DNA of 64,000 bases from assembly GCA_029263455.1 (NCBI GenBank), contig JAJCXM010000022.1:434001-498000 (forward strand). The letters are read 5' to 3'. The translations under genes and the position numbers were made by a program. How positions within the stretch are numbered: position 1 is the stretch's first letter; each line of letters begins with the position of its first letter. Under the pieces are notes generated by a model. That model was not told where the DNA came from, did no database searches, and was given only the letters and a program-made list of their open reading frames with translations. Source of the stretch: Holophagae bacterium. Its GTDB lineage: Bacteria; Acidobacteriota; Holophagae; Acanthopleuribacterales; Acanthopleuribacteraceae. Shown piece by piece: positions 38,224-62,677 of this stretch.

Positions 38224-38299
38224 TTTAAGATGAAAGATAAGTATATCCATTGAATTTGCCACGCAACCCGTAGGGCTTAGGTTGTCTGAGGAGAAACAC

Positions 38300-43129: not shown

Positions 43130-46100
43130 ATGACACGTATTTTTTGTTGTTTTCTGCTGAGCCTTAGCGCTTGGTCCCAAACACAAGACGACATGCTGGC
43201 CACGTCTCGTTTTGAAATGAAGAGGCTCGGATTGACCTTGTCGCCGGAACATCAAACGGTGTTACTGGGTTTCAACGAGTCACCTTTGTCGTTCCGCTTG
43301 GCTTATGACGGTGCATTGCAAAGTGGCATGCGCATTAAGGCTGGGCTTACCGGATCAGGCCTTTCCGCGCCTGTTCAGGTAGATGTGCCAGCCGACCAAT
43401 TGCGAATCGACCTGGATCGCTCTGTCTTCACGACAATCGGCAGCTATGAGTTGATTGATGTCAGGTTGGTCAATGCAGCGGACCAGGTGATCGAGTTTGC
43501 AGAGCCGCGAAACGCCAAGATCGACGTTATCGATGATGTGTTTGTAACGCGCGTTGAAGTACGTGAACTCTCACTCGAGGAGCTGTTAGAGCTCGGCTAT
43601 GTCTTCAACAAGGCTGACTATCATTCTGTCAGTTTCACACTGAACCTGGTAATAGGTTCTCGCGAAGAAACCGTAACCACCAATGTTGTTTATCCGAAGG
43701 TTAAGAATGATCGATTTAAACCGTTAGTCATTACAGATCCCTTTAAACCTTACGTTCGCGCGATTCCGATGGAAATCTTTTTGCCGGAATATGATGTGCC
43801 GTATGCCGATTTTACGCCGCCAGCGCCTAGCGAGTTTCGTGGCGATGGCTTGTTGATCATCCCTGGTAACTTCAACTACCTGAAATCGCATTTTGGCGTG
43901 ACAGCCGTCATATTGAATAAAGGACCCCAAGGTTTGGATGTACGGCTTGAGCGCTTGAAATCCAAAATTGTATTGCCTGACGCCACCATCTACGGAGAGC
44001 CACTCGCCACCAATCAGTCACGATCCCAGGATATGATTAATGTTGGGCCAGACGGTGAACGAGATACGCCCGATGACCGTAACTTCGCCGATCCAGGCGA
44101 AGAAGCCTCCTCACAATATGTCCTCATCGGCAACATCGAAGGAATGTACGACGTAGATGTGGAGATCACTGGCGACGTTGCTTTAACCTCGGAAACGATT
44201 CCCATACGTTCAACCGCTCATGCACGAGTCTTTGTTCGCAACCCCAACTTTTCGGTCACCTTTGAACATCCGGATGCCGTTGCCGAAGACGAAGCATATG
44301 ACTTGCACATGCATGTCAGCAACACATCTGAATCCAATCTTTCCGGATTCTCGGTGACGCTTGACCCCTTCCGTATGGTTGGCGTCCAACTGGATACGGG
44401 CGTAAACCCCATCCAAACATTAGCGACGCTGCCGCCTGGCGGTGAAGGAACGATTACGTATCGTCTGCGTTCTAACACGGCTGGAAAAGTGTTGGCTTCC
44501 TATCTAAAGATCGATGGCGCACCTTCTGGTCAGGTAGATTTGTATGTCGGGGTGGGAGAAAGCGGCGAGGTAATAACCCCTTATGTTTTTAACTATCCGC
44601 CCATATTTAACCTGTTTCCGGCTTCATTAACTTCACCGCTGCGTCGGCTTGCAAAAAAGGGCATGGATTTCGCCCAGATGACATCAGACACGCTGCCGTT
44701 GGAACTTCAACCCATATCACCTGCTGCGGTTCGTGAACTCAATGACCAAATGGTGCGCGCAGCCCAGCTACAAACGTTCCAAGCCCCATACCAAGAATCT
44801 TTGATTCAGCTCTTTGGGACTTGGTTGCACGGCGTAAAGGGCTATGAACCCATCGATCTTTTGCGCCGAAAACTCATCTCCGAGGGGACTGTAGACCCTA
44901 GGTCCGCCTTTGCCTCAGAGTTTGAATCGAGTTTTCAATTCACAAGTCCTGAAACCATTGCCCGTACTATCGCTCAAGAACTAGACGCGCAAACAAATCA
45001 AATTGGCGTGGTTATTAACGCTAGTCAGCCCGGACTAACCGTGCGTGTAACCGATGGGTCGGGCCGATCATTAGGACACGGACTGCCAGACCAAATCCCC
45101 TTTGGCACCTTCTTGCGGCTCAGCGATGAGCAGAGTCTGATATGGATTTCTGCGGCAACCGAAACGCCCATCATTGAACTCCAAGCTCCCGATGGAACTA
45201 ACGTCCAAGTGGCAGCCATATTTCCTGGCTCGTCTAATACCCTGTTTGCTCTTCTACCGCCTTTCACCCTTAACGGAGCGTTGCAGATCGGTTTTGAACC
45301 CAGCCGAAGTCAATTAGTCCTGAATCCTGCCGATCAGCCGGCGTTCAATCTCGCTGCTAGCACATTACCTGGCAAAGCAATTGAGTTGCGGGAAGTTAAG
45401 CAAGTAGACCCAACCTTGGGTCGATTTGCTGATGGTTATGGACGTCATGTCATGTTTCCGTTTACGGCGGAGCTAGATCTTTCTTCGTTGCAGCCCATCG
45501 AAGACCACATTTGGATCAACGGTGAGCCAGCTGTGGATGCCAGTTTACAAAAAGACGGGCGCACACTTTTCGTGAGCGCACGCATGCCTCTGGGCCCCTA
45601 CCGAGACATTGACTACAGAATCGAAGGCGCACGCTCAAAATCAGGTTCAACCATGGCGGTCGGCCAAGGCTTGGTAACCGCATCTAGCTGGTTCATTGGT
45701 GTCTCCGTTGAAGGGCGAGTGGTTGATCATGCTGGTAGCGATTTAGACGATGCCGAAGTGATGTTGTTCTTACCCAATACCACTCATTCGGACGATCCAA
45801 ATCAACCGTTTCGCGTGTTTGCGCGAAGTAAGCTCGATAGTTCTGGAGCCTACAACTTCGATTTTGTCCCTTTTTTGCCGTTTTCTCAGTCGAATCAAGG
45901 TCAGAATCGCGCAACGGGCGCTGTTCGCGTGGGCGTGCAGACTGCAGACGGTCGCTTCCGATTTGAAGAACTTTGGCCCGGCGGCGCTGGCCAAACGTTA
46001 CGGGCCGATTTTGCCTTTTTACACCAGGGCGATGTTGAAGGCTACGTTTTTCACAATGGTGAACCCGTCCCCTTTGCGCCAATATTTGTCCAACACAATA

Positions 46101-49100
46101 ACGATCCAGTCCAAAACCGCGAGACCACCACCGATCAGAACGGCTTTTACCGCGTGACTGGCATCGATGTTGGCCCCATCACCGTGCGCGCCCTAGCCAA
46201 TAATACGCTTGGATTAAGATCCGGGTATCTGACGCAGGCGGAATCGCCGCTCAGACTCGATGTTTACGTGGATACACCTGAAGGCGCCTTAACCGGACTT
46301 ATCCAATTCGAATCCGAAGGTCAAGATCTGCCGTTGGCGGATGCGTTTGTGGTATTCGCTCGTTACGGCGACGTGCTTTCGGAATTTGAAATTGCTGGAT
46401 TTTCTTTTCAGGCATCGGCTGTAAGCCAGACAGGCGCAGATGGCCGCTTCCTTATGGAACATATCCCTGCGGGTTTTGGGCAATTAACGTTACTCAGTCG
46501 CCAGTTTGGGATGAAGCAAGTTGAATTGACCATCTCGCCGGGCGCCGTTGAGGTATTTAACTGGACCTATCAGGTGGACGACGACCTCGAGTATGGAGGG
46601 ATAGCTCGTGGTCGTGTCTTAGTCGACGGTTTTGGCTTTGAGGGCGCCTGGGTTGCGGCAGCCGGTCGTGGCGTACAAACCAATGCATCCGGCCAATTCG
46701 AATTGCTAGATTTACCGCTCGACCAATTTTTATCGCTTAACTTATTTATGCCTGGCTCATCAACACCGAACGCGACCTTTGACATCTTCTTAGCTAAAAC
46801 TAACCCCATTGTTGAGAACCTCGAATTCAACATGAATGCGGCCATAACCGTGAGCGGACTGCTTCATGACGAGTTGGATCAGCCAGTGCCTTTTGCACCC
46901 ATATTCTCGCCACCCTATATCGAACGCGTGCGGCCCGTCGCAGAAACCAATGCTAGCGGCGAGTGGTCTTATCGCAGCACAAAACGTGGTCATGTCAATC
47001 TCACCGCCATCCGTCAACCCCACATCGCAGAAACCGAAATCTTCGTACAAGACGACGATATCTATGGGCTGATCATTCGAGAAACCGCTTCATCCGCGCT
47101 TAAGGTGCGTGTTTTTGACCCCGACGGCAATCCCATTCTGGCCAAAGTTAGACTCAAATCCCTGAGTCCCATCTTGCATCCAGATAGTTATGGTAAAGCG
47201 CAATATGGGCTGACTCACGATCTACTGACAGACGCAACTGGCGTGATTGATTTCCCGGAACTGAATTCAGGTGACTTTGAAGTCTGGGCCAGCAACCCGC
47301 TTTATGGCGATACGAATCATTTCACGGGTTATCTTGCGCCTCGTACACCCGACGACCCGATCGTGATCAGCCTCTCATTCCAGCAAGCGACACTGGCTAA
47401 TCTGTTTGGTACTGTCTTCGACGCGCAGGGCTTTCCCGTGGCCGATGGCATCCACGTCCAAGCGCGATTCGACAACATATTCGCGCCCATACGCACCAAC
47501 CCAAGCGGAGACTATCGCTATGAAAGCCTTGTTAATAGCAATGACCCGACTCGGGTCGAATTGCTTGCCTATAACCCGCAAACAGATCAGTTCGCCGTAT
47601 CAAGGATTGATTTGAGACAAGGGCTCAATTACCGGCAAGACCTGGTTTTGAAGAACCGCCGTAATGTCATCGTTCGCGTCGAAGACCACGAGGGTCAACC
47701 CGCCGATTTCGCGGCCGTTCAAATTGAATACAATAATGTCTTGTTCACGCCGCCAGCTGATCCCAGTGACCCGCTCTCCTTCGGTGAAGCCGATTTGCGA
47801 CGAGTGGTCGATATCGATCAGGTCACCTTAAACGATCCTGCCGCGCAATTCGATTCGGTCCCACTGGGTGAATTCACCATCAGAGCCAGCTCTGGCAACG
47901 GTTTAGCCGCTCTGCGATCTTTTATCCTGCCCAACTTGCCAGGCGACTTTGAAGTCGTGGTTCGGCTTGAAGCGGCTTCCCGTATTTCGGGAACCTTTTT
48001 CGACCATGGCGATCAACCAATCGCTGATGCTGAAGTGGAGCTGAAACAAGGTTCACGTGTTCTTCAACAGCACTTAACGGAGGGCGCTTCAGGAGACGTC
48101 GGCCATTTCGAATTTGATGAGTTGCCGATGCGCACCTATCAACTTGAAGGCTTAGACCCAACTACAGCGTTCACCGGGCGTGCGACCGCCACTACCTCGT
48201 CGTTTCACCCTGACGTAGAAGTTGATTTGAGATTGGACCCGATCGCTCATTTGGCAGGGACTGTCTTTTTTGCGGGTAGCCCGGTCGTGGGTGCCACGGT
48301 CGAATTGGCGGGCAGCGGAATCCTGTTGTCTACGGGAACAGACGATCTGGGTCGCTATCAGTTTGCGAATCTACCACTCAATAACTATCAGTTGTCGGCG
48401 TCCAAACTAGGCATTCCCTCAACCGTCGCCAGAACTACCGTCACCTTGTCCGAAGCCAATGTCGAACACATCCAAGACCTTTTCTTTATTGAAACTAAAG
48501 ATGTAGATGTACTCGTTTTGGATCCAGACGGCGTGCCGTTGCAGGACATATTGGTGACAATGGCAGCCAGTTCGGGACAAACCGGATTTGGTGATATCGC
48601 CTATTCCGATGAAGAAGGCATTGCTCACTTCACCGATATCACACCAGCAAGATACCAACTTGAGGCGGAGTCGCCGCAAGGCTTCAGTGATGCTACGGGT
48701 ACATTGGTGGTGGCCTCCTTAGACTACTCACCTGTGTGGCATAGCCTGCAATTCCCGGGCATTGGTTCGGTTTCGGGACATGTGCTTTTGAGTTCGGGTC
48801 AACCGCCAGGTCAGACCCTGGTTGTTACCGTTGAGACGCGAAACTTTGTGGGTAATTGGTACAGCTTAAGTAGCTTACCTGCCAACCAGGATGGCAGCTT
48901 CTTCATGCCCGGTCTCAACGTGGGACAGGGTTATCGTTTCTCAGTTGCCGATCCATCGACCCGCCAATCAGATTCACTCAAAGTCACGCTCGACTTTCAC
49001 GGCGAAAATCGCGCTATAGATTTGACGTTACAAGAAACGACCTACATCACAGGGTTAGTGCGACGCGCTGACGGGTCTGCTGCTCCCCACGTGAGGGTTA

Positions 49101-52100
49101 CTCTAAATGAACCGTTCTTCGACATTGCATATACCGATGGCTTAGGCGAGTTTTATCTAGAACCGGTTCCCGCAGGCTCATTCGAGTTGATCGCCGAAGA
49201 CCCGCTCTCACCACGATTGGCACGCTATCAGGGTGAGATTCTGACCGACGCGAATGGCTTCCCGATTCCTGCCAATATTGAACTAACCCTTGGCGGCCTG
49301 GCGACCGTCAACGGCATGGTCCGTTTAGGTGACGGCTCGCCCGTAACCTTTGGTGAAATGCGCCTGCAAGCTGAGTCCACTGGCGTGATCACAACCCCGA
49401 TCCAGGCTGACGGATCTTATTTGTTCTCGTTGGTTCCGCTCGGCAATTACCAGTTGACAGCATTTGACGGCGAACTCATTGCCTATAGTGCGGCGCAAAC
49501 GGTGCTATTAGATGTTGATGGCGGATCAGCCACTTTTGATGTCGACTTCCCAGCGAGTTATCAACTTAGCGGTCATCTCTTTATGCCTCCGACCCAACTA
49601 GTGGCGGGTGGAACGGTCGAGTTATGGAAGCGACCCGCAGGCTCTACCCAATACTTGCTTGTCTATCGAGCCACTACCGACGAGTTTGCGGCCTTCGGTT
49701 TTGACCATGTTTATCCAGGTAGCTACCAGCTGAAGGCCTCAAATGCTAGCTTAAGTGCGTTGGCGAGTTATGCGATCTCCATGCCCAGCGGGCCATGGGT
49801 TCATGATGTCTATCTAACGGAGCGTGCCACGGTCATTGGTCAGGTCATGGATGGTTCGTTGCGGCCCTTTACCAGTGGCAGTTTACAAGTTACGCAGTTT
49901 TGTCTGACCCAATCCGTTTCAATCGGCCCTGACGGTGGTTTTTTCCTCGATAACCTGGTTCCTGGCGATGTGACCTTTGTGGCGTCGTTGGTTTCTGGCT
50001 GGTTCAATATTGATCAGACGGTGACCTTGGGCGCTGGCACAAATGCCATCAATTTGCAGTCTCAACCCTCTGTGGATATTGCCGGACAAGCGATTGTTAT
50101 TTCGCCTCTGACACTCGTACCGCAAGTCTCTTTTTCATATAACGGGCGTAGCCGAGGCGTTTCGCTAAATGCCAGCGGCGATTTCGTTTTGTCTAGGGCC
50201 CCAGCCCAATCCGCACTGGAACTATCAATACGTCGCCAGACCCTTAGACGCGATGTAGCCATCAACACCGCTGTAACGAACATGGATTTGGGCGCTGTAT
50301 ATCTAGATAGTACGCCACCGGAAGTTAGCTTTGCGGATGCAGGTCAGACGGTTACTCAATTGCCTTATTCGATGCAATTCACGATCACGGAAACAGATCT
50401 TCAAAGCTCGATCGACGAAGATTCTCTCCTCGTGCGTGTCAATGGCAATGACGTAACCCACCTGTTCCAATTAACGGGTTCATTTTTATCGGCGAACTTT
50501 CAATATTTCCCCGATTTCATGGTGTTGGGAAACAACCAAGTACACCTTGAAGTGAAGAACACCAGCCGCGCAAAAGCAGACGTTAACTTTGATTTTGATT
50601 TGCAACCACAGGATTTTGCCTTGGTTGTGAATCTTGTTGATGTTGGCAGCCCCGTTGCCGGACAGGTCTCCTTCGCGGCCGCAAGCTACGTCGACACCGA
50701 TGCCTCCGGTCAAATTGTATTTAACAATCTATCGCAAGGGTCCTATCAACTTAAGGCTCGCGTTTCGGATTTAGGCGCTCGTGCCATTGCAAACGTGGGC
50801 GTCACGCCAACCGCTTTCTTGACGATAGAATTGGATCCAGTCGCTTCGTACACCGGTGAAGTGAGGCTCGTGGATAGTTCACCCGCAGCCAACGCCACTG
50901 TGTGGGTAGGACCATTTTGGGAAACCGCCGACGCAATGGGCGTATACAGCTTTGATCTGTTGCCGCTTTCAGCGCATGCACTATTTGGCAAGAGTGGTGC
51001 TCAGCTTGGCTACCTGTTAGGGCCCGAGCTCACGCTTAGTGGTCAATTGATCATTGATGTTGATGTGCAACTTGAAGGTTCGGGCCAAGTTCAAGGCGTT
51101 GTCTATGACGACGACGGTTTAACGCCAGTGCCCAACGCAGAAGTGACATTAACAACCCCAGGACTGCCGAGCTTCTTTGACCGGGCAACGACAAGTGACG
51201 CCAGTGGGGCTTATGCGCTTAATGAGGTCATCGCGCGGCACGCAAATTTGACCGCCTTAGACCCCGTCACCGAACGCATGGGATTTGCGGAATCAGACAT
51301 CATTGCAGATCAGGTGAACCAAATAGATATTGTTTTGGCGCCTGCCCGAGATCTGTTTGGGATATTGCTTGATAGTCAAGGTCAACCGCTACCTGATCAT
51401 ACTGTTGAATTGAGCGGACCACGTTCGGGCAACGTTCAGACCGAGGCACTGGGTCAGTTCCGTTTTGAAGATCTACCCATGAACGCCAATTACTCGATTT
51501 ACGCCGAACAGCGTGACCTTTTTGAATACCTCGAACTAGATGTTCAGTTACTCGAAGCGGACTTGGATGTGGGCTCTTTGACCATGGCCGTCGATCAGCC
51601 ACCCGTCATCAATTTATTGACGGTGACCGATCCCTTGGACCCTGTCGCGCCCGTTTATATGTCAGTCGACGTAAGCGACGACCGCCGCTTAAGTAACTGG
51701 GACATAAGATTTTTGGATGGTGCAACCAGTGTTGGACATTCCTATGGTGGGCTTAATGGTACGACATGGGTGCGCACGAGATCGGTAGACGTGAATAATG
51801 CCGTGACCGCATCCCAATTGACCTATAACTTCACAGTTACTGATCATTGGGATCAAACGACCGTCGTGTCTCAGACGGTGAATGTTGTGCTTGATGCTGA
51901 ACCGCCAGTTGTTGCCATCACGGCACCGCTGGCAGGCAGTGAGTTTTTTGGCGGAGACCGCATGACGATTCGTGTTGATGCCACAGATAACTTTAGTGTT
52001 GACCGCGTCGAGTTGTCGGTGGCAAGTGATCCGCCTATTCAATTGAGCGACCAGAACGCGCCCTTCCAATTCACCATCGATGCGCCGTTTGTGGCTACGG

Positions 52101-55100
52101 CAACAAACGTTCCTTTTACAGTGACGGCTTACGATCAACGAGACAATTCTGCCGTTGCTGCATCCGATTTCCAGTTATTGCCGCTTACCACGACCGGTGT
52201 TCCTGAACTGACGTTGAACGCGCCCGTGGCTAACCAGCCTCTGCCTATCTGGTTGACTCAAGGCCTACAGCTTCGTGTGGCCGCAGAAGCCAGTGATCCG
52301 GACGGTTTATGGAATTACACCCTCTTCATCAACGACATAGAAGTGCAATCAAATCTGTTGTCAGGTACAACGGATCTGATAGATGCGACTTACGTTATCG
52401 GGCCCGAGTTCCGGGATTTGACTAGCATGGATGTATCACTACTTGTTCGCGACATCGGCGGCCAGAGCACACGCCGTGATGTCACGATCCAGAACATTTT
52501 GGGTGTATCACTGGAAGCATTGGTGATAGGCGTCAATGACTTCCAATACGACGGTCAATCATTGATCTTGGTAGGTGGCTCACACCTGATTGACGGCGAC
52601 CATCAATTCCAGAACCTGGTGCTCGTCAATGGCGCAGAACTCGGCCAAACCGCCACACACGATGTGTTCCCAGAAGTGGTTCGCACTCAATTGCAAATCG
52701 ACGAACATTTTGTGGTGGATTATGGCTCAATCGTTAATTTTGATGGTGCAGGTTATAGCGGTCTGCCCCCGGAACTGAATATCGCGACGGGTACAGCTTC
52801 ACACGCAGGCTTGGCTCACGACGGTACGAACCCAGCCGAAATTTACGGATCTCCCTTTCAACCCAACCGGCCTGGCTCATACTGGGGCGGTGGTTGCCTG
52901 CGTGTCATCGCACCAGATCAATGGATTTTGGGTGATATTAGTTCTGATGGCGCTCGCCGTACGTCGTCACCTCATTGGGGATCTGGTGGCAGTATTTGGC
53001 TGAGCGCGACTCAATTCCATGGCTTTGGCAACATCGGAGCCAACGGCTATCCGGGCAAACTCTCGCAAAGTTCGTTTGGTGGTTCTGGCGGACGTGTCGC
53101 CATTGAAGGTGACTTCCAAGGCACGGTGATGGCCGTTGGTGGCAAACAAGGGAACGCAGGCGGCGCGGCAGGAACCGTTTACCGGCGCACACTAGACGCC
53201 TCAAAGCCAGACGGATATCTAGACGAATTGAGCATCCAGAATGACGACGTCAATGCCGACAGTCAACCCACCTTATTGCAAGAACTAGGTCCGTTCCAGG
53301 TTGATCAAGATGTGTTTGTCCGTTTTGAGACGGTGGGGCCGGATACATTCCAGGTCTTGGATATCCCGGCTGGCTGGAACTATTTGGATGTGGCTGGCTT
53401 TAAAGTCGTCTCCGACGTGGACCCCGTTGGCGTTGCGATCATGCGCAACCAGTCGACTGAACTCTGGTTGGCAGCCAATGAGACGCTTGTCTTGAACCCG
53501 GGCAATCAAGTGCGACTTGTGGCAAAGTTCGACCACATCGTGATTGGTAAACGAGCGGTCGTTGAGCTAGCGGGCAAGCTATCTAGCCCGTCACTCGTTA
53601 TCGATAACGGCACTTTGGCCGGTCGTTGGGCGCACGCCGATGTGTCCGCTATCGAACCTGTTTTGCTGAATGATATTTGGATACGCGGCTCTGTTCAATT
53701 CGCCGATTTGATCACCCATGCGGGTTTCACCTTGGATATACGTGGATCCTTATTGACAAATCTCTTTGACCATCAAGTAGGCGATGTCACCTTGGATGGC
53801 GAAATCGTGGCCAATACGCTGAATACGGGTGTTGGGGCCAATATCCTGACCCCAGCAGGCCTCTTAGGCGCAACCATTACCTTGGACGCCAATGCGCTTT
53901 CCTTGGCTGGCAATGTAGAAGCTCGTAGAAACGGGATGGTATTGGATACCAGTGATCCCGAGCAGTTGGCTCGGTCTCGCAGCCATGGCGGCGTGGGTTA
54001 TCTACCCACTTCCACCAAGACCTATGGCAGTTTGTACGACCCGAAATCTCAAGGGAACGGTGCGACCCATGCGGGTGGGATCATCAATATTCTTGCCCAG
54101 GATTTCTCTCTCGATGGCTCACTCAATGCCAGCAGCACGAGTCATAGCTCCGGTGGCACTGTGCATGTCAGCGCTACAACCATGGCGGGAGCGGGTCAGA
54201 TTTCTGCCAATGGCTGTTCAAGTTGTAATGGTGGTGGCGGCGGGGGTCGTATTGCACTTTTAGTAAACGACCCTAGCTTGTTTATCGGGCTCGTCGAAGC
54301 GCGCGCACAATCTGGCGGCGGAGCGGGCACGGTTTATTATCGAACCGACCAATGGCCTTTGGGTCGACTGGTTGTCGATAACGGCGGATTAGATGGCGGA
54401 TCGGCAAGTCAGCCTAAAGACCGTGAGACTCTATTGCCAGGATTAGGCGTGCGCACGGCTGGGCAGGCCACAGGCGGTACGGAAATCTTGGGTTCAGATT
54501 TTGCCGATAGTTTGTCGGGTCTGCACCTGGTAGTCGATGGTTTTGCGCCGTTACCAATATTAGAGAACACTGACACTCAGATCCTGCCGGTAACATCCTT
54601 CCCCAGCATTGAGGCAGGTGGCTCGTTCTCAGGGCTACATCGCCTGAACGTCGTAGAAATTCGCGGTAATGCGCACCTTGTGAGTATCGACCCCATCGAA
54701 GTCACCGATGAATTGATTTTCGTGGATGGCTCGATTTCAGCTCCTGATATTAGCTACCCTCCCGGCTTTGTATTCAGGGATGGCTCTATTACCCTCGATG
54801 CGCCACTAAGTAGCAATGAGTTGATTCTGGATAATTTCCATATGACCGTGCCTTTTCCGTTGAGTCTGGATTCGATTCAACTACTCAACGGTTCGACGCT
54901 TGTTTATCGGGAACCCATCAGCGCGCAAACCATTGCCGTCGACGCATCAACCTTACAAGCCGAAATCGAGAATCCCGTTGCCGGCATAAAATGTGTGGAC
55001 CTATCACTATTAAATGGTGCGTTGTGGACTGTATCGGACCTTCCCGCCACAACAAGTGATCCCTATGCCATCGACGCCGAAATTACGGGCACTCTGCTAA

Positions 55101-58100
55101 TTGATTCGAGTTCATCCATTACGACAGGCTTGCAAGACAAGAATATACGCAAGCGTTTCGAATGGCCTTTGGGTGTGACCTATAACCCAAGCAACAGCGA
55201 TATTAGTCATGCGGGCGTAGGGCGTTTGTATTCCGGTATGGACGCCAAGAGTTCGGGCTCATTTGCCCGGCCAAACCGTTTTGGTAGCGTCTATGGCGGC
55301 GGACTCGTCCAGCTCAATGCGAACCACATGCAAATCGATGGCAGCATTCAAGCCAACGGGTTTAGTATTGGATCAGGTGGATCGATTCATCTGCAAAGTC
55401 AAACGCTTGCGGGCGCTGGACGGGTCGAAGCAAAGCCGGCCCATCGTCGCAGTGGCGGTGGGCGCATAGCCGTTCACTACGCCAACGACGCTAGTTTCCG
55501 CGACACGCTCGTATTTGATACGGCTTTTGACACCGTAGAGGCTAATTCACTCTATGTTGGCGGAGCAGGGACCGTCTTTTTCCAGTCGGCCAGCCAGGAA
55601 TACGGCGAACTGATAGTCGATCAGAAAATATCTTCAGCCACCACATCCTCGTCACCACAGGAGTATTCAGCTCGCAGACGCTTTACCGCCGTTCCTGGCT
55701 TTGATGAAATCAATTTGTTTAGTGATACAACGCCTCAGGATCTGACCACCATTACGGATCCCAGTTGGAGTTTGCCTCCTGATTTGACGGGCTTGACGTT
55801 GATCGTTGACTCACCAACACCTTTTGAAAGTCGCATCCTTGCAAGCACGTTCACTTCGATCACGGTTGATCGTGATTTACCCAAACCGATTGCCGATGGT
55901 ACGCCGATGCGACTCGTGCTCAAGCTGGACAAGCTGACGCTACGAAATGGGGGACAACTCTATTTTGAAGGCGAAATTGAAGTCACCGAATTGAATCTGG
56001 AAGGGACTTACCTCAACAGCGTTTGGGCCAAGGACCTTCTTGGTCTGCCGGACCAAATCCAATGGATCGATCAAAAAGTACGCTTCATCCTCGATCAACC
56101 TAGCTGGCAGAGCAAGCAAATAGAAGCGAACAACACGCATATCTATATAGATAAGCCGCTCGAGATGAATAGCTTGTCATTGGTGAATAGCCAAGCCATG
56201 CACTCTCTTTATGACAGTACGGACTTGTTCTTTGCGCCACGATTTGAACTGACCGCTGATTCTGTTGTCATGGATTCCTCTAGCTCCATCGACGTAAGTG
56301 CTCGAGTAGAGAGCTTCGCTCATAATGGGATACGCAATAGCCACGGCGGTGTGGGAACCAGCACCGAAACCACCTATGGTTCTCTGTTTAGACCAATTGA
56401 CTATGGCAGTGCCAACTCCGGTGAGTTAGCCGGTGGCGCTGTGCGTTTGCAGGTCAATAATCTTTCCGAAGCAACCATCAACGCTGCCGGTGACCGTGGC
56501 GCAGGTGGCTCAATCTGGATTGAAGCCAATCACATCGCAGGTGACCTCAACCTGGACGCCTCTGTCTCAAGAAGCTTCACGCGCGGCGGCGGTGGCCGCA
56601 TCGCCGTTAATTACGACCAACTGGACGGTGTCATCATTGCTGATGCGCGCGGCATCCGCAGTGCTGGCACGATCTATCAACGACATCGGCCAAGTCAACC
56701 TTTCGGTTTACTTACCATTCAAGACATGACCGGCAGTAACCCTGCAGCCACCAGACTTCCTGGCTTTGCGCCTGCCACTTTAGCGGCTGGATTTACCCAG
56801 GATTATGATCTTGCCAGTGATCGAACCAGCTTGCGCATTCCGGCACTCACCCTGACTGAAAACTTCGTGGACCACCACTTAATGTTCCAGGGTAATGAGG
56901 CGATGCGATTCGTGATTGTCGATCAGCAGCAGCAGGGTAGCGATGCCCTATTCACTTTAGCAGGGGAAGTGCCGTCACTAGCCATCGGTGATGCCTACCA
57001 ATTGGCCGTAGTCTTAGATGACTTTGATCTGTGCGCTACTTGCAGCATGGGCGTCGAGAATGTGCGACTCATTGTCATTGACGATGTACCGCCGGTTATC
57101 GATATGGTCACCGCTTCTCCGCTCATCGGTGGCGTGCTCGATTCCGGTCAACTATTCGACGTTGAGGTGACGGGCTCAGATAACCAGGCGCTTAACCGCG
57201 CAGAAATTTCGTGGGACGGACAGGTATTCACTCTGATGGGCGACAGCCCCTACCAGCTGCAGTTACAAGCGCCAGTCGTCGGCGTCGCCACCGATATGCA
57301 GTTAAGTGTTGTGCTCTTTGATGCCGGTGATTTGGCTTCGCTACCTGCCAATCAAATGATTCAGGTGGTTGAGCCGGATATGATTGATCCTGTGCCCACC
57401 ATCGAATCACCAACCGCAGGCACACAGGTCAGTCCCGACACGCCATTCATAGTGACGGTTTCAGCATCTGACAATCGCCTTGTGTCCTCAATCTCGATCA
57501 CCTTCAACGGTGAAACCAGCGAGCATATCTACGCTGAAGGTACTTGGGGACAAGCGGTTGACTTCAACGTTACCGCACCGTCCAGCGGCGGAATCTACCC
57601 CATCCAACTTAGTGCGACAGATCTACAAGGTAATATGAGCAGCGTTTCAATCGACATTGAAGTTGATGCCTCGGACACAGAAGCTCCAGTGATTACCGTG
57701 CTTATGCCTACTCAGTCATCTGCTGCAGAAGGCGATGTTTTAGCCATCGAAGTTGAATTGTCCGATGCCAGCGCGATTCAATCGGCGCAGGCCACTTTGT
57801 TAGGCACAGTCGCTCAACTCACCGAGTCCGGCGGCGTCTATCTGGGTAGCTTACCAGTCTCGGCACCCATGTCGCTAATCGACGCAGCATCTATTTCCAT
57901 TGAAGCCAGCGACATCCACGGTAATTCGTCGATGGTTCCCGTACCCATGCAGGTGACCGCATCCAATTACGCGTTACCCACATTACACGTCAACGCACCT
58001 GCTCAAGGATCAACGGTTGAGAGTCTTCAAGCCGCCGTCATTGCGCTCGAATTGCGCTATTTAAACGAGGATGCGGAGGCGCCGTCTCCGGGTTGGTCTC

Positions 58101-61100
58101 ACACAGCTAGTAGCCGATCCGTCGACTGGCGACTCGACTCAGTTTCACCTCACTTGGGCCTATCTTCGTGGCGTATCCCGGACCAAGCTTCAAACGTGGC
58201 TTCACTGAATTCGCCCTTCTTTACGCCTGCCAATGGCAGCAAACTCAGCTTCTGGAACAAAATGACCGTCAATCCTCGTGTCGATGCCGGTCAACTATTT
58301 GTCGAGACTTATTTGGCCAAGACAGGCAAACGTGTTGTTACTGCCGTGACCGATTTTGAGATGGGCGGCTATAAAGATGTCATTAACCAATCAAGTAATC
58401 CCGCCTTTGGTCAACAAGCATGGACTGGCAACTTTGACTACGAACCTTGTGTCGTCGATCTGTCGCCTTGGCAGGGTCAGGCCATTCGTCTCACCTGGCG
58501 TTACTCCAGCAATAGCACCACCAACGGCGTGTATTGGGCTATCGACGATATTCGCGTGAGTCATTTGGGCGGTCCCGCCAATCTGACTCAGTTCCAAGTT
58601 GATATTGACGGTAATCTTTTTGATCTGGAAGCTGAACGTCCATACCTACCCGTCATAGCACCAAATGTCGCCATAGCAACCACACAAAGCTGGCGATTCC
58701 TGGCAACAACACCGGATAATTTGTCACTAGAGATCTCCCATCAATTCAATTTGATCCCCGATGCCACGGCGCCTGAACTCGAATTGATCGCACCAGCATC
58801 CTACGCGGTGGTGAATTTTGGCGATCCGCTGCAGGTTGCTCCGCTTGTTTCGGAACCCAGCCAGGGATTGCTTGTGCTCGGCTTTGAACCGCCATATGCG
58901 GGAATCGATAATCGATCGGCTAATCCGGCTGGTTTCGAAAACCTGATGCTGGCCCAAGATCATGTGCAATTCGACTTACTCAATGGCAATAATTTTGACG
59001 CGTCAGTCGAAACAACTGCGCTCGTGGTTCCAAACGCAGGAAGGCTAACCTTCTCGCAATCATTCTCCCAGAGCCAAGCCACGGCGGGATCCATCATGGA
59101 GATCAGCACCGATGGCGGTGCAAACTGGTCCGACCTTGCGCTTTCAGTTGTGGGTGGATATGACGGCGTTTTTGGCTCGTCAACAGCGGCAGGATGGGAA
59201 GATCGCCCCTGCTGGACGCCAGAAAGTAACCCGAATATTGAGGTCGACCTCAGTTCTTATGCCGGTCAACGCGTGCAATTGCGCTGGAGCCTGCGCAAAG
59301 TGAATTTCACGGCCGTCACCTGGACGTTAACGCAAGCGCAGTTGAGCGGCGTCTACGCCGATGATGCCAGTCGCATCGATGTTGTCGAATTTGACTATGC
59401 CGGTTCGCAGTTGCAGGATACGAGCTTGCCGTTCACGGCCGATTTCGTTAACCCCAGTCCTTTGGGCACTGAGACTCAGGTGATCACGATCACGGCTCGG
59501 GACCTTATTGGAAATCAAAGTCAGTTGACGCGTCCGATTCTGGTTGTTGGTTCTCAAACGCAACAATTGAGTTCGGCCCAGATTATGGCTGGCGATGCTA
59601 CTTACGATGGTCAAGACATCCTGCTTCATGCAGGCAGCCATTCCATTGAGGGTAGCCATCAATTTGCTTCACTTGTACTTCAAGATGGCGCTGTCATGAG
59701 TCACGCTATGACAAGCGATGTCATGAATCCTGCTGGACTGGATTTGAACATAGCGGGCAGTTTCGTCGTTGCCAACAATGCTCAACTCGATGTAGATGGG
59801 CTCGGATACCCACAAGATATGACCGACCCAAGTCTTGGGTTGCTTTCTGGGCACGGACACGCGGGCCTCGGTCAAGGTGAAGATGAGGGCAGCTATGGTT
59901 CCGTTGTCGCACCATTCACGGTTGGTTCTGCCACCGGCGGTGGTCGCATTCGCATTCAGGCGAACGAACTGATTATTAACGGTGCCATTCATGCGGACGG
60001 CAAGCCTTATAACGGTCAATTTGGGTCGGGCGGTTCCATCCACTTAATAGGCAACACGTCGATTTCCGGTCAGGGCACCATTTCCGCTAACGGCTATTCG
60101 GGCAACCGAGCGAGTTTCGTGGGAGGCGGAGGCGGACGCATCGCTTTAACAAGCAATGGTTCGCTTGATTTCAGTGGCTCCGTTTCTGCGTTCGGAGGCC
60201 GCGAAGCGGGTTCCGGCACCATTTATCGTTTTGCACCGGGCATTGATCAATGTGATGTTGTGGGCTTCAGCAACGATGAAAGCCGTCACATGACACCTTT
60301 AGACACACTCGATGTGACGCCACAACTGCTGCGCGTCCAACATGCTCGTGTCTCTCAAACAGGTCCATTACCAGGAACCTCGTTTGAAGTCACTGATGGC
60401 GAGCTGGGCTTTGACCTGGCACAGTTGGTCGACCTCAGAGGTCGCCTTCTGAATACCGACGCGCGTCTGTCTGGCGATTTGATGTTGGACCTAGAGATCA
60501 TCATCCCAGGTTCAAGGAACCGCGGTTCACTCGAATTGGCGGGTACCATCAACACAGGCTCGTTGAATCTAGTGGCCGCTCAGGGCAACCAAGAGATTGG
60601 CTTCGTTGGAACCTGGAATGCACCTTCGCTGATCAATTCAAACGTCACGATTCGTTCCATGGATGATTATGCGAATGAAGCCATGCGCTTCCAGATCACA
60701 GGTAACATGAGCGTTTCATACGATGCCGTTATTGATGCGCGAAACGGGGCGGGTATTAACGCGAACCGGTACTCCCATGGCGGCTTTGGTCTTCAGTATT
60801 TACAAGGCGGAGCCATCGAAGAAGTGACAGGCGAGTCACCTTACGGTTCGTTCTATGCGCCCAACACGCCAGGAGGCGTAGGTGGCATCATTCACATTGA
60901 GTCGAACCAATTGACGGTGGACGGTGTCATTAAAGCGGATGGTTCGGGATTAGACGGAGCTGGCGGATCAGCAGGCTCCGTGAACATTGAAGTTAATCAA
61001 TTGTTGGGCAGTGGCACCATTAGCGCTCATGGCGGTCAAGAATACGACGTGGGCAACATTGTCGAAGTGGCCGGATCGGGCGGACGCATCGCCATTCGCG

Positions 61101-62677
61101 TGAATCAGGTGGGCGGCGACCAATTTTCGGGTCAAGTCTCGGCAAATGGCGCTGGCATTTATCCATCCACCGAAATGTTTGCCGCCCCGGGAACCATCTA
61201 TCGCGTCAATGATCAGTACCCGCAGGGTCATCTGCTGATTGACGGCGGATGGGGACTCATTTATCAACATGGCAGAACCGTTTTGCCTAGTCTCGGTCTG
61301 CGTACCGTGGGCACTGACGATACCGATCTCGACAATCTCTTAGTTGATGCGACGCAACAGTTCACCGCAAGTCTGAAGGGACGCGCGCTTGTTCACGAAT
61401 CGGGGCCGGTGGTGAACATCCTCGACAACGATGAGACCAGTATATTGGGCGACCAGCCTTTTATGGCTTTTACAAGCGGTGAAACTTACTGGGGCCGCCA
61501 CCATGTTTCTCAGCTTACGGTGAATTGGGATCTGGTCAGCGAAGACGAAATTGTTTATGACAGCCTCGACCATCAAGACGGCGTGATCGATGTGCTTAAC
61601 TTTGTCGTGCCCAAAACGCGGCTCTTGGAAAAGGGCACAGGCGAGTGGCAACAACGGCAAGTCCAAGAAGAGTTGGTTCTTGACCAGTATGAACTGAGAG
61701 CTGTTGGACCACTCCGTGTTGGACGACTGGAAATGAGGGCCGGGTCGCGTTTGATCCTGGATCCTCACCTCCCAGCACACCAACTCGTGGCCGATGAGCT
61801 AGTCATGTTGCCTGGGTCACAGATTCTAGTGGCCGCTTCGAATGAATTATTGCCACCGCTTTCGATCGTTGTACGTGGCCAAGCCGTGATCAGACAGGGT
61901 GCGAGCATCGACGGATCGGGTAGCGTTCTCAGACCAGACATGGCGCCGTCACATGGCGGCATTGGCAGTACGTTTGCACTCGAAAGCCTCTATGATTCGC
62001 CCGTTTACCCACGACGAAGTGGAGGCGGACCCACAGCTGGCGCTGCGATCAACTTACAAGCTGAAGTTTTGTCGCTTGAAGGGGATATCAAATCCGACGG
62101 ATTTGCATTCTCGTCTGGCGGTTCAATCCTTCTCACGCTTTCTGAACTCAAAGGCAATGGCCGTGTTTCAGCGATTGGCGGTCAAGATGGTCAGCGTCAA
62201 GCCGGCGGTGGTCGAATCGCGATTCACGCCGACCACTGGCACCGATTCGCAGGCTCATTGGTAACGGGGCAGGGCGTGGAAGCCGGCACAATCGTGCTCC
62301 ATCGCTTGGGTTCAGAAGAGCTACACATTGCAGCTAACTACCCGCAAGAAACGACCGATCAGCCATTGTCTGTGTTGGCAGCTATTAGCCTTAAACAAAC
62401 AGACATTCACCAGCTAATGAGAAATCAAATTGGAACGGTGCTCATTGTCGCCGACAGCAAGCACTTACATGATTTGATCGGGCTAAGGCTATTTGATGAC
62501 GAAATCAGCCTGGAAGTGATGGACGTGGTTGGTTTAGATGATAAGCGCACCATGATCCAACTCAGAGGCTACTTACCCTCAGGGTTCGGGGATTTAGAAG
62601 CAGGGCTCATGATTAATCACAAATCAGAGATGGCACGGCCCGGAAGGTTATTGCTACGAACCGAAGGGACGCGTTAG
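43130..62677 (+). CDS. giant secreted multidomain repeat protein (about 6,515 residues)
   Basis: This is a single uninterrupted 19.5-kb frame. I start it at ATG 43130, which gives a compact signal peptide (MTRIFCCFLLSLSAWSQ); a TTG at 43067 would add 21 residues. Neither start has a strong Shine-Dalgarno. Order of parts, in residues: an N-terminal beta-rich region of its own (about 20-855), about 21 carboxypeptidase-regulatory-like repeats (858-2821), three Ig-like units (2821-3124), four glycine-rich modules with linkers (3124-4554), four Ig-like units and two MAM-like domains (4650-5477), and three more glycine-rich modules (5482-6400). The C terminus shows no anchor, autotransporter barrel or T9SS domain. 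Few cysteines occur outside the leader. It is probably a surface fibre, adhesin or predation/biofilm factor; that is inference from architecture. The next gene begins 3 nt after its stop. Confidence 0.93.
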   Translation: MTRIFCCFLLSLSAWSQTQDDMLATSRFEMKRLGLTLSPEHQTVLLGFNESPLSFRLAYDGALQSGMRIKAGLTGSGLSAPVQVDVPADQLRIDLDRSVFTTIGSYELIDVRLVNAADQVIEFAEPRNAKIDVIDDVFVTRVEVRELSLEELLELGYVFNKADYHSVSFTLNLVIGSREETVTTNVVYPKVKNDRFKPLVITDPFKPYVRAIPMEIFLPEYDVPYADFTPPAPSEFRGDGLLIIPGNFNYLKSHFGVTAVILNKGPQGLDVRLERLKSKIVLPDATIYGEPLATNQSRSQDMINVGPDGERDTPDDRNFADPGEEASSQYVLIGNIEGMYDVDVEITGDVALTSETIPIRSTAHARVFVRNPNFSVTFEHPDAVAEDEAYDLHMHVSNTSESNLSGFSVTLDPFRMVGVQLDTGVNPIQTLATLPPGGEGTITYRLRSNTAGKVLASYLKIDGAPSGQVDLYVGVGESGEVITPYVFNYPPIFNLFPASLTSPLRRLAKKGMDFAQMTSDTLPLELQPISPAAVRELNDQMVRAAQLQTFQAPYQESLIQLFGTWLHGVKGYEPIDLLRRKLISEGTVDPRSAFASEFESSFQFTSPETIARTIAQELDAQTNQIGVVINASQPGLTVRVTDGSGRSLGHGLPDQIPFGTFLRLSDEQSLIWISAATETPIIELQAPDGTNVQVAAIFPGSSNTLFALLPPFTLNGALQIGFEPSRSQLVLNPADQPAFNLAASTLPGKAIELREVKQVDPTLGRFADGYGRHVMFPFTAELDLSSLQPIEDHIWINGEPAVDASLQKDGRTLFVSARMPLGPYRDIDYRIEGARSKSGSTMAVGQGLVTASSWFIGVSVEGRVVDHAGSDLDDAEVMLFLPNTTHSDDPNQPFRVFARSKLDSSGAYNFDFVPFLPFSQSNQGQNRATGAVRVGVQTADGRFRFEELWPGGAGQTLRADFAFLHQGDVEGYVFHNGEPVPFAPIFVQHNNDPVQNRETTTDQNGFYRVTGIDVGPITVRALANNTLGLRSGYLTQAESPLRLDVYVDTPEGALTGLIQFESEGQDLPLADAFVVFARYGDVLSEFEIAGFSFQASAVSQTGADGRFLMEHIPAGFGQLTLLSRQFGMKQVELTISPGAVEVFNWTYQVDDDLEYGGIARGRVLVDGFGFEGAWVAAAGRGVQTNASGQFELLDLPLDQFLSLNLFMPGSSTPNATFDIFLAKTNPIVENLEFNMNAAITVSGLLHDELDQPVPFAPIFSPPYIERVRPVAETNASGEWSYRSTKRGHVNLTAIRQPHIAETEIFVQDDDIYGLIIRETASSALKVRVFDPDGNPILAKVRLKSLSPILHPDSYGKAQYGLTHDLLTDATGVIDFPELNSGDFEVWASNPLYGDTNHFTGYLAPRTPDDPIVISLSFQQATLANLFGTVFDAQGFPVADGIHVQARFDNIFAPIRTNPSGDYRYESLVNSNDPTRVELLAYNPQTDQFAVSRIDLRQGLNYRQDLVLKNRRNVIVRVEDHEGQPADFAAVQIEYNNVLFTPPADPSDPLSFGEADLRRVVDIDQVTLNDPAAQFDSVPLGEFTIRASSGNGLAALRSFILPNLPGDFEVVVRLEAASRISGTFFDHGDQPIADAEVELKQGSRVLQQHLTEGASGDVGHFEFDELPMRTYQLEGLDPTTAFTGRATATTSSFHPDVEVDLRLDPIAHLAGTVFFAGSPVVGATVELAGSGILLSTGTDDLGRYQFANLPLNNYQLSASKLGIPSTVARTTVTLSEANVEHIQDLFFIETKDVDVLVLDPDGVPLQDILVTMAASSGQTGFGDIAYSDEEGIAHFTDITPARYQLEAESPQGFSDATGTLVVASLDYSPVWHSLQFPGIGSVSGHVLLSSGQPPGQTLVVTVETRNFVGNWYSLSSLPANQDGSFFMPGLNVGQGYRFSVADPSTRQSDSLKVTLDFHGENRAIDLTLQETTYITGLVRRADGSAAPHVRVTLNEPFFDIAYTDGLGEFYLEPVPAGSFELIAEDPLSPRLARYQGEILTDANGFPIPANIELTLGGLATVNGMVRLGDGSPVTFGEMRLQAESTGVITTPIQADGSYLFSLVPLGNYQLTAFDGELIAYSAAQTVLLDVDGGSATFDVDFPASYQLSGHLFMPPTQLVAGGTVELWKRPAGSTQYLLVYRATTDEFAAFGFDHVYPGSYQLKASNASLSALASYAISMPSGPWVHDVYLTERATVIGQVMDGSLRPFTSGSLQVTQFCLTQSVSIGPDGGFFLDNLVPGDVTFVASLVSGWFNIDQTVTLGAGTNAINLQSQPSVDIAGQAIVISPLTLVPQVSFSYNGRSRGVSLNASGDFVLSRAPAQSALELSIRRQTLRRDVAINTAVTNMDLGAVYLDSTPPEVSFADAGQTVTQLPYSMQFTITETDLQSSIDEDSLLVRVNGNDVTHLFQLTGSFLSANFQYFPDFMVLGNNQVHLEVKNTSRAKADVNFDFDLQPQDFALVVNLVDVGSPVAGQVSFAAASYVDTDASGQIVFNNLSQGSYQLKARVSDLGARAIANVGVTPTAFLTIELDPVASYTGEVRLVDSSPAANATVWVGPFWETADAMGVYSFDLLPLSAHALFGKSGAQLGYLLGPELTLSGQLIIDVDVQLEGSGQVQGVVYDDDGLTPVPNAEVTLTTPGLPSFFDRATTSDASGAYALNEVIARHANLTALDPVTERMGFAESDIIADQVNQIDIVLAPARDLFGILLDSQGQPLPDHTVELSGPRSGNVQTEALGQFRFEDLPMNANYSIYAEQRDLFEYLELDVQLLEADLDVGSLTMAVDQPPVINLLTVTDPLDPVAPVYMSVDVSDDRRLSNWDIRFLDGATSVGHSYGGLNGTTWVRTRSVDVNNAVTASQLTYNFTVTDHWDQTTVVSQTVNVVLDAEPPVVAITAPLAGSEFFGGDRMTIRVDATDNFSVDRVELSVASDPPIQLSDQNAPFQFTIDAPFVATATNVPFTVTAYDQRDNSAVAASDFQLLPLTTTGVPELTLNAPVANQPLPIWLTQGLQLRVAAEASDPDGLWNYTLFINDIEVQSNLLSGTTDLIDATYVIGPEFRDLTSMDVSLLVRDIGGQSTRRDVTIQNILGVSLEALVIGVNDFQYDGQSLILVGGSHLIDGDHQFQNLVLVNGAELGQTATHDVFPEVVRTQLQIDEHFVVDYGSIVNFDGAGYSGLPPELNIATGTASHAGLAHDGTNPAEIYGSPFQPNRPGSYWGGGCLRVIAPDQWILGDISSDGARRTSSPHWGSGGSIWLSATQFHGFGNIGANGYPGKLSQSSFGGSGGRVAIEGDFQGTVMAVGGKQGNAGGAAGTVYRRTLDASKPDGYLDELSIQNDDVNADSQPTLLQELGPFQVDQDVFVRFETVGPDTFQVLDIPAGWNYLDVAGFKVVSDVDPVGVAIMRNQSTELWLAANETLVLNPGNQVRLVAKFDHIVIGKRAVVELAGKLSSPSLVIDNGTLAGRWAHADVSAIEPVLLNDIWIRGSVQFADLITHAGFTLDIRGSLLTNLFDHQVGDVTLDGEIVANTLNTGVGANILTPAGLLGATITLDANALSLAGNVEARRNGMVLDTSDPEQLARSRSHGGVGYLPTSTKTYGSLYDPKSQGNGATHAGGIINILAQDFSLDGSLNASSTSHSSGGTVHVSATTMAGAGQISANGCSSCNGGGGGGRIALLVNDPSLFIGLVEARAQSGGGAGTVYYRTDQWPLGRLVVDNGGLDGGSASQPKDRETLLPGLGVRTAGQATGGTEILGSDFADSLSGLHLVVDGFAPLPILENTDTQILPVTSFPSIEAGGSFSGLHRLNVVEIRGNAHLVSIDPIEVTDELIFVDGSISAPDISYPPGFVFRDGSITLDAPLSSNELILDNFHMTVPFPLSLDSIQLLNGSTLVYREPISAQTIAVDASTLQAEIENPVAGIKCVDLSLLNGALWTVSDLPATTSDPYAIDAEITGTLLIDSSSSITTGLQDKNIRKRFEWPLGVTYNPSNSDISHAGVGRLYSGMDAKSSGSFARPNRFGSVYGGGLVQLNANHMQIDGSIQANGFSIGSGGSIHLQSQTLAGAGRVEAKPAHRRSGGGRIAVHYANDASFRDTLVFDTAFDTVEANSLYVGGAGTVFFQSASQEYGELIVDQKISSATTSSSPQEYSARRRFTAVPGFDEINLFSDTTPQDLTTITDPSWSLPPDLTGLTLIVDSPTPFESRILASTFTSITVDRDLPKPIADGTPMRLVLKLDKLTLRNGGQLYFEGEIEVTELNLEGTYLNSVWAKDLLGLPDQIQWIDQKVRFILDQPSWQSKQIEANNTHIYIDKPLEMNSLSLVNSQAMHSLYDSTDLFFAPRFELTADSVVMDSSSSIDVSARVESFAHNGIRNSHGGVGTSTETTYGSLFRPIDYGSANSGELAGGAVRLQVNNLSEATINAAGDRGAGGSIWIEANHIAGDLNLDASVSRSFTRGGGGRIAVNYDQLDGVIIADARGIRSAGTIYQRHRPSQPFGLLTIQDMTGSNPAATRLPGFAPATLAAGFTQDYDLASDRTSLRIPALTLTENFVDHHLMFQGNEAMRFVIVDQQQQGSDALFTLAGEVPSLAIGDAYQLAVVLDDFDLCATCSMGVENVRLIVIDDVPPVIDMVTASPLIGGVLDSGQLFDVEVTGSDNQALNRAEISWDGQVFTLMGDSPYQLQLQAPVVGVATDMQLSVVLFDAGDLASLPANQMIQVVEPDMIDPVPTIESPTAGTQVSPDTPFIVTVSASDNRLVSSISITFNGETSEHIYAEGTWGQAVDFNVTAPSSGGIYPIQLSATDLQGNMSSVSIDIEVDASDTEAPVITVLMPTQSSAAEGDVLAIEVELSDASAIQSAQATLLGTVAQLTESGGVYLGSLPVSAPMSLIDAASISIEASDIHGNSSMVPVPMQVTASNYALPTLHVNAPAQGSTVESLQAAVIALELRYLNEDAEAPSPGWSHTASSRSVDWRLDSVSPHLGLSSWRIPDQASNVASLNSPFFTPANGSKLSFWNKMTVNPRVDAGQLFVETYLAKTGKRVVTAVTDFEMGGYKDVINQSSNPAFGQQAWTGNFDYEPCVVDLSPWQGQAIRLTWRYSSNSTTNGVYWAIDDIRVSHLGGPANLTQFQVDIDGNLFDLEAERPYLPVIAPNVAIATTQSWRFLATTPDNLSLEISHQFNLIPDATAPELELIAPASYAVVNFGDPLQVAPLVSEPSQGLLVLGFEPPYAGIDNRSANPAGFENLMLAQDHVQFDLLNGNNFDASVETTALVVPNAGRLTFSQSFSQSQATAGSIMEISTDGGANWSDLALSVVGGYDGVFGSSTAAGWEDRPCWTPESNPNIEVDLSSYAGQRVQLRWSLRKVNFTAVTWTLTQAQLSGVYADDASRIDVVEFDYAGSQLQDTSLPFTADFVNPSPLGTETQVITITARDLIGNQSQLTRPILVVGSQTQQLSSAQIMAGDATYDGQDILLHAGSHSIEGSHQFASLVLQDGAVMSHAMTSDVMNPAGLDLNIAGSFVVANNAQLDVDGLGYPQDMTDPSLGLLSGHGHAGLGQGEDEGSYGSVVAPFTVGSATGGGRIRIQANELIINGAIHADGKPYNGQFGSGGSIHLIGNTSISGQGTISANGYSGNRASFVGGGGGRIALTSNGSLDFSGSVSAFGGREAGSGTIYRFAPGIDQCDVVGFSNDESRHMTPLDTLDVTPQLLRVQHARVSQTGPLPGTSFEVTDGELGFDLAQLVDLRGRLLNTDARLSGDLMLDLEIIIPGSRNRGSLELAGTINTGSLNLVAAQGNQEIGFVGTWNAPSLINSNVTIRSMDDYANEAMRFQITGNMSVSYDAVIDARNGAGINANRYSHGGFGLQYLQGGAIEEVTGESPYGSFYAPNTPGGVGGIIHIESNQLTVDGVIKADGSGLDGAGGSAGSVNIEVNQLLGSGTISAHGGQEYDVGNIVEVAGSGGRIAIRVNQVGGDQFSGQVSANGAGIYPSTEMFAAPGTIYRVNDQYPQGHLLIDGGWGLIYQHGRTVLPSLGLRTVGTDDTDLDNLLVDATQQFTASLKGRALVHESGPVVNILDNDETSILGDQPFMAFTSGETYWGRHHVSQLTVNWDLVSEDEIVYDSLDHQDGVIDVLNFVVPKTRLLEKGTGEWQQRQVQEELVLDQYELRAVGPLRVGRLEMRAGSRLILDPHLPAHQLVADELVMLPGSQILVAASNELLPPLSIVVRGQAVIRQGASIDGSGSVLRPDMAPSHGGIGSTFALESLYDSPVYPRRSGGGPTAGAAINLQAEVLSLEGDIKSDGFAFSSGGSILLTLSELKGNGRVSAIGGQDGQRQAGGGRIAIHADHWHRFAGSLVTGQGVEAGTIVLHRLGSEELHIAANYPQETTDQPLSVLAAISLKQTDIHQLMRNQIGTVLIVADSKHLHDLIGLRLFDDEISLEVMDVVGLDDKRTMIQLRGYLPSGFGDLEAGLMINHKSEMARPGRLLLRTEGTR
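45701..51590 (+). repeat. array of about 21 carboxypeptidase-regulatory-like (Cna-B/transthyretin-like) repeats
   Basis: The encoded repeats of 75-110 residues share the pattern G-x-V/L at the first strand, G-x-P-(V/L)-(A/P)-x-A-x-V, then a turn D-x-x-G-x-(F/Y) and LP-x-x-x-Y-x-L-x-A. Clear examples are AHLAGTVFFAGSPVVGATVE, ATVNGMVRLGDGSPVTFGEM and GQVQGVVYDDDGLTPVPNAE. Repeats are strongly diverged from each other, so the array is old and not prone to recent slippage. Such domains form stiff beta-sandwich stalks in surface proteins. Confidence 0.85.
51592..52500 (+). repeat. Ig-like (bacterial Ig, P-x-V-x-I-x-x-P type) block A
   Basis: Three units begin PPVINLLTVTDP, PPVVAITAPLAGSEF and VPELTLNAPVANQP, each with a following D-(A/V)-x-D or SDPDG strand. 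They separate the stalk-like array from the first glycine-rich module block and match the Big-type domains common in large surface proteins. Confidence 0.75.
52500..56790 (+). repeat. glycine-rich module block A (modules 1-4)
   Basis: Four copies of a roughly 130-residue glycine-rich unit occur at about 52740-53190, 53980-54345, 55200-55590 and 56335-56685. Shared skeleton: S-H-(A/G)-G-x-G, then Y-G-S-x-(Y/F), a G-G-G strand, I/L-D-G-x-I-x-A-x-G, GSGGSI(W/H)(L/I), G-x-G-x-I-x-A, GGGGRIA and finally AGT(V/I)(Y/F). Linkers carry an LPG(L/F)-type motif and beta-rich segments. The regular strands suggest a right-handed beta-helix or similar solenoid. I do not recognise a named domain. Confidence 0.8.
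57080..59560 (+). repeat. Ig-like block B with two MAM/jelly-roll-like domains
   Basis: Ig-like units start PPVIDMVTASPL, DPVPTIESPTAGTQVS, APVITVLMPTQSSAA and LPTLHVNAPAQGS. Two jelly-roll domains follow: the first has KLSFWNKMTVNP and NGVYWAIDDIRVSHLG, the second has RLTFSQSFSQSQ, ISTDGGANW and the degenerate end VTWTLTQAQLSG. The first ends with the typical WAIDDI motif of MAM-like or choice-of-anchor domains, often involved in binding glycans or proteins. Confidence 0.7.
59575..62330 (+). repeat. glycine-rich module block B (modules 5-7)
   Basis: Modules 5-7 lie at about 59800-60230, 60765-61210 and 61945-62310. Module 5 (HADGKPYNGQFGSGGSIHL; GGGGGRIALTS; GSGTIYRF) opens with the same entry segment as module 1 (YDGQ, then GSHxIxGxHQF and LVL), so block B begins as a copy of the start of block A. 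Modules 6 and 7 keep GSGGRIAIRV and AGGGRIAIHAD. The protein ends about 115 residues after module 7. Confidence 0.78.

Follow-up and report, generated by a model that had tools for sequence, protein, structure and literature searches.

To our knowledge, it is poorly understood by what route the leader-bearing RHS toxins of Gram-negative bacteria leave the cell and how they are retained at its surface. The closest described systems are the Maf loci of Neisseria and the RHS systems of the Sec/T2SS type. In the former, MafA is required for the secretion of MafB (PMC7738311), having earlier been proposed to anchor it (PMC3482391). Toxins of the latter have been listed in Acidobacteria (Zhang et al. 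2012, PMC3482391). In this study, we describe a very long repeat protein of Acidobacteriota (hereafter, the giant) that is encoded directly upstream of a large RHS/YD protein (the partner). We found no earlier account of this giant-RHS pairing in the open literature, subscription journals being mostly outside the scope of the search, and the terms 'Rhs', 'toxin' and 'secretion system' are absent from the main text of the comparative-genomics paper on the family (PMC8841776). We put at about even chances the reading that the giant is a constant, non-polymorphic surface scaffold, encoded first in a polymorphic-toxin cassette of two genes.

The window analysed here is a stretch of 64,000 nucleotides, positions 434001-498000 of contig C22 in a 6.2-Mb genome of 40 contigs (G000), belonging to the Acanthopleuribacteraceae. 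The giant gene occupies 43130-62677 on the plus strand and is one unbroken frame, 6,515 aa followed by a stop codon, which confirms the intact 19.5-kb frame reported in the preliminary description. An open frame of this length is beyond chance expectation. The mechanical ORF starts at TTG 43067; we took ATG 43130 as the start, since this is favoured by the closest ortholog, in G001 (MAG HKST-UBA04). The two proteins are 53% identical over 6,120 aligned residues, the ortholog being 6,144 aa long. The third-position share of their codon differences was 0.61-0.71 in each 500-residue block that aligned, indicating that the frame is a maintained gene. Independent assemblies, one of them the complete chromosome of Sulfidibacter corallicola M133 (G003), contain same-frame homologs of ~5,000-7,700 aa. 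A frameshift or an assembly join inside the frame, the flaw that the preliminary description had considered, is in practice ruled out by these homologs together with the codon constraint. The Sec leader described earlier was also recognised by us, by eye, as a probable signal peptide (43130-43180, plus strand) that ends in ...LSLSAWS and is followed by QTQ.

The window holds some other genes of note. An Eco57I/MmeI-type restriction-modification methylase is encoded at 8990-11785 (minus strand). Polysaccharide biosynthesis is represented at 11834-16111 and 36267-36842, with a Polysacc_synt_2 epimerase, a Wzz protein with an AAA domain and a dTDP-4-dehydrorhamnose 3,5-epimerase. The gene at 38282-40777 (plus strand) encodes a protein in which a very long acidic tail comes after a response-regulator domain, and the mirror ORF on its opposite strand (39661-40746) is a composition artefact.

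We analysed the domain architecture of the giant using Pfam, NCBIfam and HMMs iterated over related giants; all the features given below lie on the plus strand. The conserved N-terminal region (~aa 21-700; 43190-45229) is followed by a stalk of carboxypeptidase-regulatory-like (CpepD) repeats. The family CarboxypepD_reg (PF13620) was matched in Pfam with E=2.1e-82 and a score of 272 bits, the cutoff being 32.3; by this score, and with 20 copies, the giant is a member of the CarboxypepD_reg repeat proteins. The iterated HMM placed these 20 repeats at aa 859-2809 (45704-51556), close to the estimate of about 21 made from the sequence earlier, and found 19-21 of them in close family homologs. A tblastn search of plasmids with the CpepD stretch gave no match. 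Each half of the protein has an Ig-like Big_7 domain in Pfam, at aa 2926-2987 (51905-52090) and aa 4754-4805 (57389-57544), in agreement with the two Ig-like blocks proposed before. The seven glycine-rich modules proposed in the same description were all recovered by HMM: the cores of modules 1-4 are at 52784-53152, 53969-54316, 55193-55495 and 56324-56638, and those of modules 5-7 at 59852-60208, 60764-61153 and 61943-62266. The claim of two MAM-like domains held only in part. One weak region (aa 5037-5203; 58238-58738) gave an InhA-like_MAM match under its Pfam cutoff (E=8e-4) and a partial, sub-cutoff NCBIfam match (E=2.7e-9), whereas a second domain is marginal at best in both collections. 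The protein ends with a short segment (62357-62629, approximate boundaries), which by eye aligns with that of several family giants. The view that sortase signals, a beta-barrel and a T9SS tail are missing also stood: neither Pfam nor NCBIfam reported an autotransporter barrel, sortase or T9SS family in the giant, and Pfam reported no beta-barrel family in its C-terminal half.

The N-terminal region is the part by which these giants could be traced. The first 950 residues had homologs in each of the five large-genome relatives sampled (G001 and G003-G006), in frames of ~4,700-7,700 aa, and none in the small-genome relative G002; matches elsewhere in the class were weaker. A profile search of 297 Acidobacteriota genomes found the region in 30, within frames of ~1,400-6,500 aa, some of the shorter ones sitting at contig ends. 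The pooled alignment (A1) corresponded to no accepted Pfam family and had no sequence relative in the PDB. It was too divergent for a pattern scan, and a narrower alignment (A2) was used instead, which confirmed family members only. The AlphaFold2 (AF2) model of the region shows beta-sandwich domains, a helical segment at ~aa 491-617 and then further strands; its overall confidence is modest (pTM 0.39). Kinship of this model with macroglobulin, complement or transglutaminase proteins was considered and rejected: the E-values were low but the TM values did not exceed ~0.2, and we read the matches as generic beta-sandwich likeness. The glycine-rich module also has no accepted Pfam family. The AF2 model of module 5 (query 59522-60898) is all-beta, with mostly pLDDT > 90 over residues 11-240, the first half of the modelled stretch. 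It gave no significant fold match; the weak neighbours were tapirin, RbmB, EtpA and EspP. The binding or solenoid tip suggested earlier for the last half of the protein is plausible in view of the all-beta prediction and of the beta-helix proteins among the best, albeit non-significant, fold matches.

The partner ORF begins only 3 bp past the stop of the giant, at 62681 (plus strand), and continues beyond the window (62681-64000 and onwards) up to the contig end, giving at least 5,189 aa. The preliminary description had advised looking for secretion genes downstream of 64000; what is present there is this toxin partner and no recognised secretion gene. It has a leader, judged by eye, and a Pfam scan of its first 5,000 aa showed Glucodextran_B, Big_7, Big_5 and one weak RHS_repeat; its own toxin tip would lie past the contig end. 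Aligned over 5,244 columns, it shares 45% identity with the G001 partner, which is complete (6,049 aa) and has both YD_repeat_2x and Rhs_assc_core above cutoff. RHS cores are also present at other paired loci. Glycine-rich modules were not found in the partners by HMM, and some of the partner N-termini look similar to them by eye. The two genes are separated by 3 bp in the window and by 10 bp in G001, and they overlap at other loci; this spacing suggests that giant and partner may be co-transcribed.

Next, we asked how regularly the two genes occur together. The gene behind each giant was classed by its RHS motifs and by BLASTP and tblastn against known partners, and loci lying at the end of a contig were excluded. 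Within the Acanthopleuribacteraceae, the partner is the next gene in 14 of the 19 giant loci: G000 C22 and C7, G001 C61 and C10, four loci in G003, G004 C178, C236 and C375, C48 of G005 (Holophagae MAG 8_bin.70), and C1 and C6 of G006 (Acanthopleuribacter pedis KCTC 12899). In several cases the partner is truncated by the end of the contig or of the retrieved sequence. The family loci without a partner are the tandem giants of G006 C59 (two) and G005 C15 (two), and G004 C168. Outside the family, the partner is a neighbour in 12 of 20 loci, namely in the class relatives G009, G023 and G049 and in G092, G211, G108, G121, G277, G100, G088, G123 and G099; G088, G100 and G123 are closely related, so the pairing counts are not independent events. 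One small gene lies between giant and partner in G211, and no YD shell was detected in the partners of G009 and G023. Seven loci are unpaired (G258, two in G110, two in G300, G087 and G267), and in G122 an RHS gene lies ~10 kb further on. The Sulfidibacter genome has 46 RHS cores in 11.8 Mb, and all four giants found in it adjoin a partner, a neighbour rate that is not attributable to chance. The distances among giants and among partners are correlated (Mantel rho 0.51, a value reached in 5 of 5,000 permutations), without correction for the species tree. The giant-partner pairing as such is well supported.

Some further observations were made at these loci. At G003 C1:130001-150000 the partner occupies two frames, of 1,899 and 2,445 aa, as would be expected if this copy had suffered a frameshift. 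Sulfidibacter also has at least three partner-type RHS genes (C1:7711458, 2106804 and 1688470) that are not preceded by a giant; these may use a giant in trans. A different giant frame of at least 5,906 aa, at G003 C1:9157001-9177000 (minus strand), immediately precedes another large RHS gene; its N-terminal stretch looks by eye like alpha/alpha-toroid repeats, and the locus may represent a second type of giant-RHS pair. In G211, at both G300 loci and in G110 C1, the gene behind the giant is a small ORF of ~165-185 aa that looks secreted and, by eye, thioredoxin-like.

Among close relatives, the partners differ in their C-terminal tips. Alignments of the family partners stop at or near a DPxG motif past the core. 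The tips beyond gave Pfam matches above cutoff to DUF900, EndoU, PT-HINT with Tox-REase-7, a Tle1-like domain and VanY; one further tip has PT-HINT and, after it, an AHH match below cutoff, and three of the ten partner tips had no Pfam match at all. The partners of G088 and G123 are 94% identical over 5,217 residues and then carry unrelated tips, and their giants are 94% and 83% identical at the sampled N-terminal and C-terminal ends, respectively. The partners of G009 and G023 (39% identity over ~3,150 columns) likewise end in unrelated tips, with a VanY domain in one and a lytic transglycosylase-like domain, by eye, in the other. A YD/RHS shell and core with exchangeable tips, as expected of RHS polymorphic toxins, were observed in partners of the relatives. 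Most partners have an RHS shell, and in their sequences they show the hallmarks of such toxins: a conserved shell, an RHS core and swapped C-terminal tips. Small ORFs lie 3' of the partners and are by position candidate immunity genes; in G108, G123 and G088 they are followed by RHS fragments.

At the sequence level, then, the genes are paired, the partner tips are swapped and the giant stays constant. From this we infer for the giant a role in scaffolding or export, and for the two proteins a surface location, joint action and contact-dependent delivery. Both would reach the cell surface, where the giant would form a long fibre with a CpepD and Ig stalk and all-beta glycine-rich modules. This fibre would anchor or present the RHS protein and bind a neighbour or the matrix. 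The RHS shell would retain the tip until contact, and the tip would then be passed into the neighbouring cell. The type II system may carry out export through the outer membrane, or the giant itself may help to provide a route. A type II GspD-like secretin was found above cutoff in G000 and G003 and just below it in G006. Other routes were also considered. Two-partner secretion was rejected, as neither Pfam nor NCBIfam showed a TPS domain in the giant and POTRA_2 was absent in G000, G003 and G006 with positive controls; a type Va autotransporter was rejected for the giant's lack of a C-terminal beta-barrel family. For T9SS, NCBIfam showed no C-terminal signal family in the giant, and a SprA_N search matched nothing, its controls being likewise silent.

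There is good support for the giant being secreted and elongated, with a stalk and modules. The earlier proposal of a surface fibre for adhesion, biofilm or predation had an antagonistic role among its options but treated the giant as a lone fibre; the gene that tells most about it is the adjoining RHS partner. The corresponding alternative, that the giant is a stand-alone adhesin or biofilm fibre whose RHS neighbour merely shares islands of giant surface proteins with it, agrees with an architecture typical of adhesive stalks and with the giants that have no RHS partner; we consider it rather unlikely in the light of next-gene pairing that recurs in diverged lineages and of the correlated distances. 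The unpaired loci also count against the cassette reading, as pairing is not universal and Sulfidibacter has partner-type RHS genes without a giant, and so do the G009 and G023 partners with no detected YD shell.

The giant might instead be a dedicated secretion partner, required like MafA for the passage of the RHS protein through the outer membrane and not for holding it there. As in the Maf loci (PMC7738311), a polymorphic toxin has a constant gene upstream of it, no POTRA_2 transporter was found in three genomes, and the unpaired RHS genes could use the giant in trans. However, Pfam and NCBIfam reported no beta-barrel or membrane domain in the giant, and the type II secretin is available as an alternative; we regard pure secretion as improbable. 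A stable complex of two components like that of the Tc (ABC) toxins, with the giant as the receptor-binding and delivery part, would account for an RHS shell and a large partner encoded adjacent to each other. It is very improbable, as Pfam reported no Tc-family domain in the giant, TcA and SpvB/TcdB-type domains being absent from it and from the first 5,000 aa of the window's partner, and as the architecture differs. A stronger form of the cassette reading would make the giant an obligate display or secretion partner of Acidobacteriota RHS polymorphic toxins, a single constant fibre, several thousand residues long, being able to serve several exchangeable giant toxins in cis and in trans. We advance this only tentatively, and equally so the new fibre-based system of export or presentation that it would represent, for which the N-terminal region, unnamed until now, would be the marker.

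Paired with RHS toxins in several Acidobacteriota lineages, the giant is a direct candidate for their transport to, and retention at, the cell surface, and its N-terminal region is a marker for finding such cassettes. The pairing also offers an explanation for the retention of several such very long genes in the large Acanthopleuribacteraceae genomes. As the pair is carried by the cultured Acanthopleuribacter pedis and Sulfidibacter corallicola, these ideas are testable if genetics can be set up.

Compared with known systems, the giant has a repeat stalk and Ig domains in common with giant CpepD/Ig surface proteins and adhesins, and like them is probably an extended fibre; it differs in its linked toxin gene and in an N-terminal region and glycine-rich module outside the accepted Pfam families. 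With the bacterial YD-repeat ancestors of teneurins (PMC6425310), the YD-shell principle is common to the partner only, the giant having no YD shell. The Sec/T2SS-type RHS toxins (PMC3482391) share with the partners the leader, repeat stalk, YD/RHS shell, core, variable tip, HINT and small ORFs. In contrast to them, the partners are 4,300-8,300 aa long, against a length peak of 1,400-1,600 aa for RHS toxins (PMC3482391), and are accompanied by a giant constant protein, for which we found no earlier description. The Maf loci of Neisseria (MafA, MafB, MafI) likewise combine a constant exported protein with an adjacent polymorphic toxin and small ORFs downstream. Here, however, the constant protein is a repeat fibre of several thousand residues in which Pfam and NCBIfam scans reported no MafA-like family, and the toxin is of the RHS and not the MafB type. 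By analogy, and without detected kinship, the giant may work as MafA does beside MafB.
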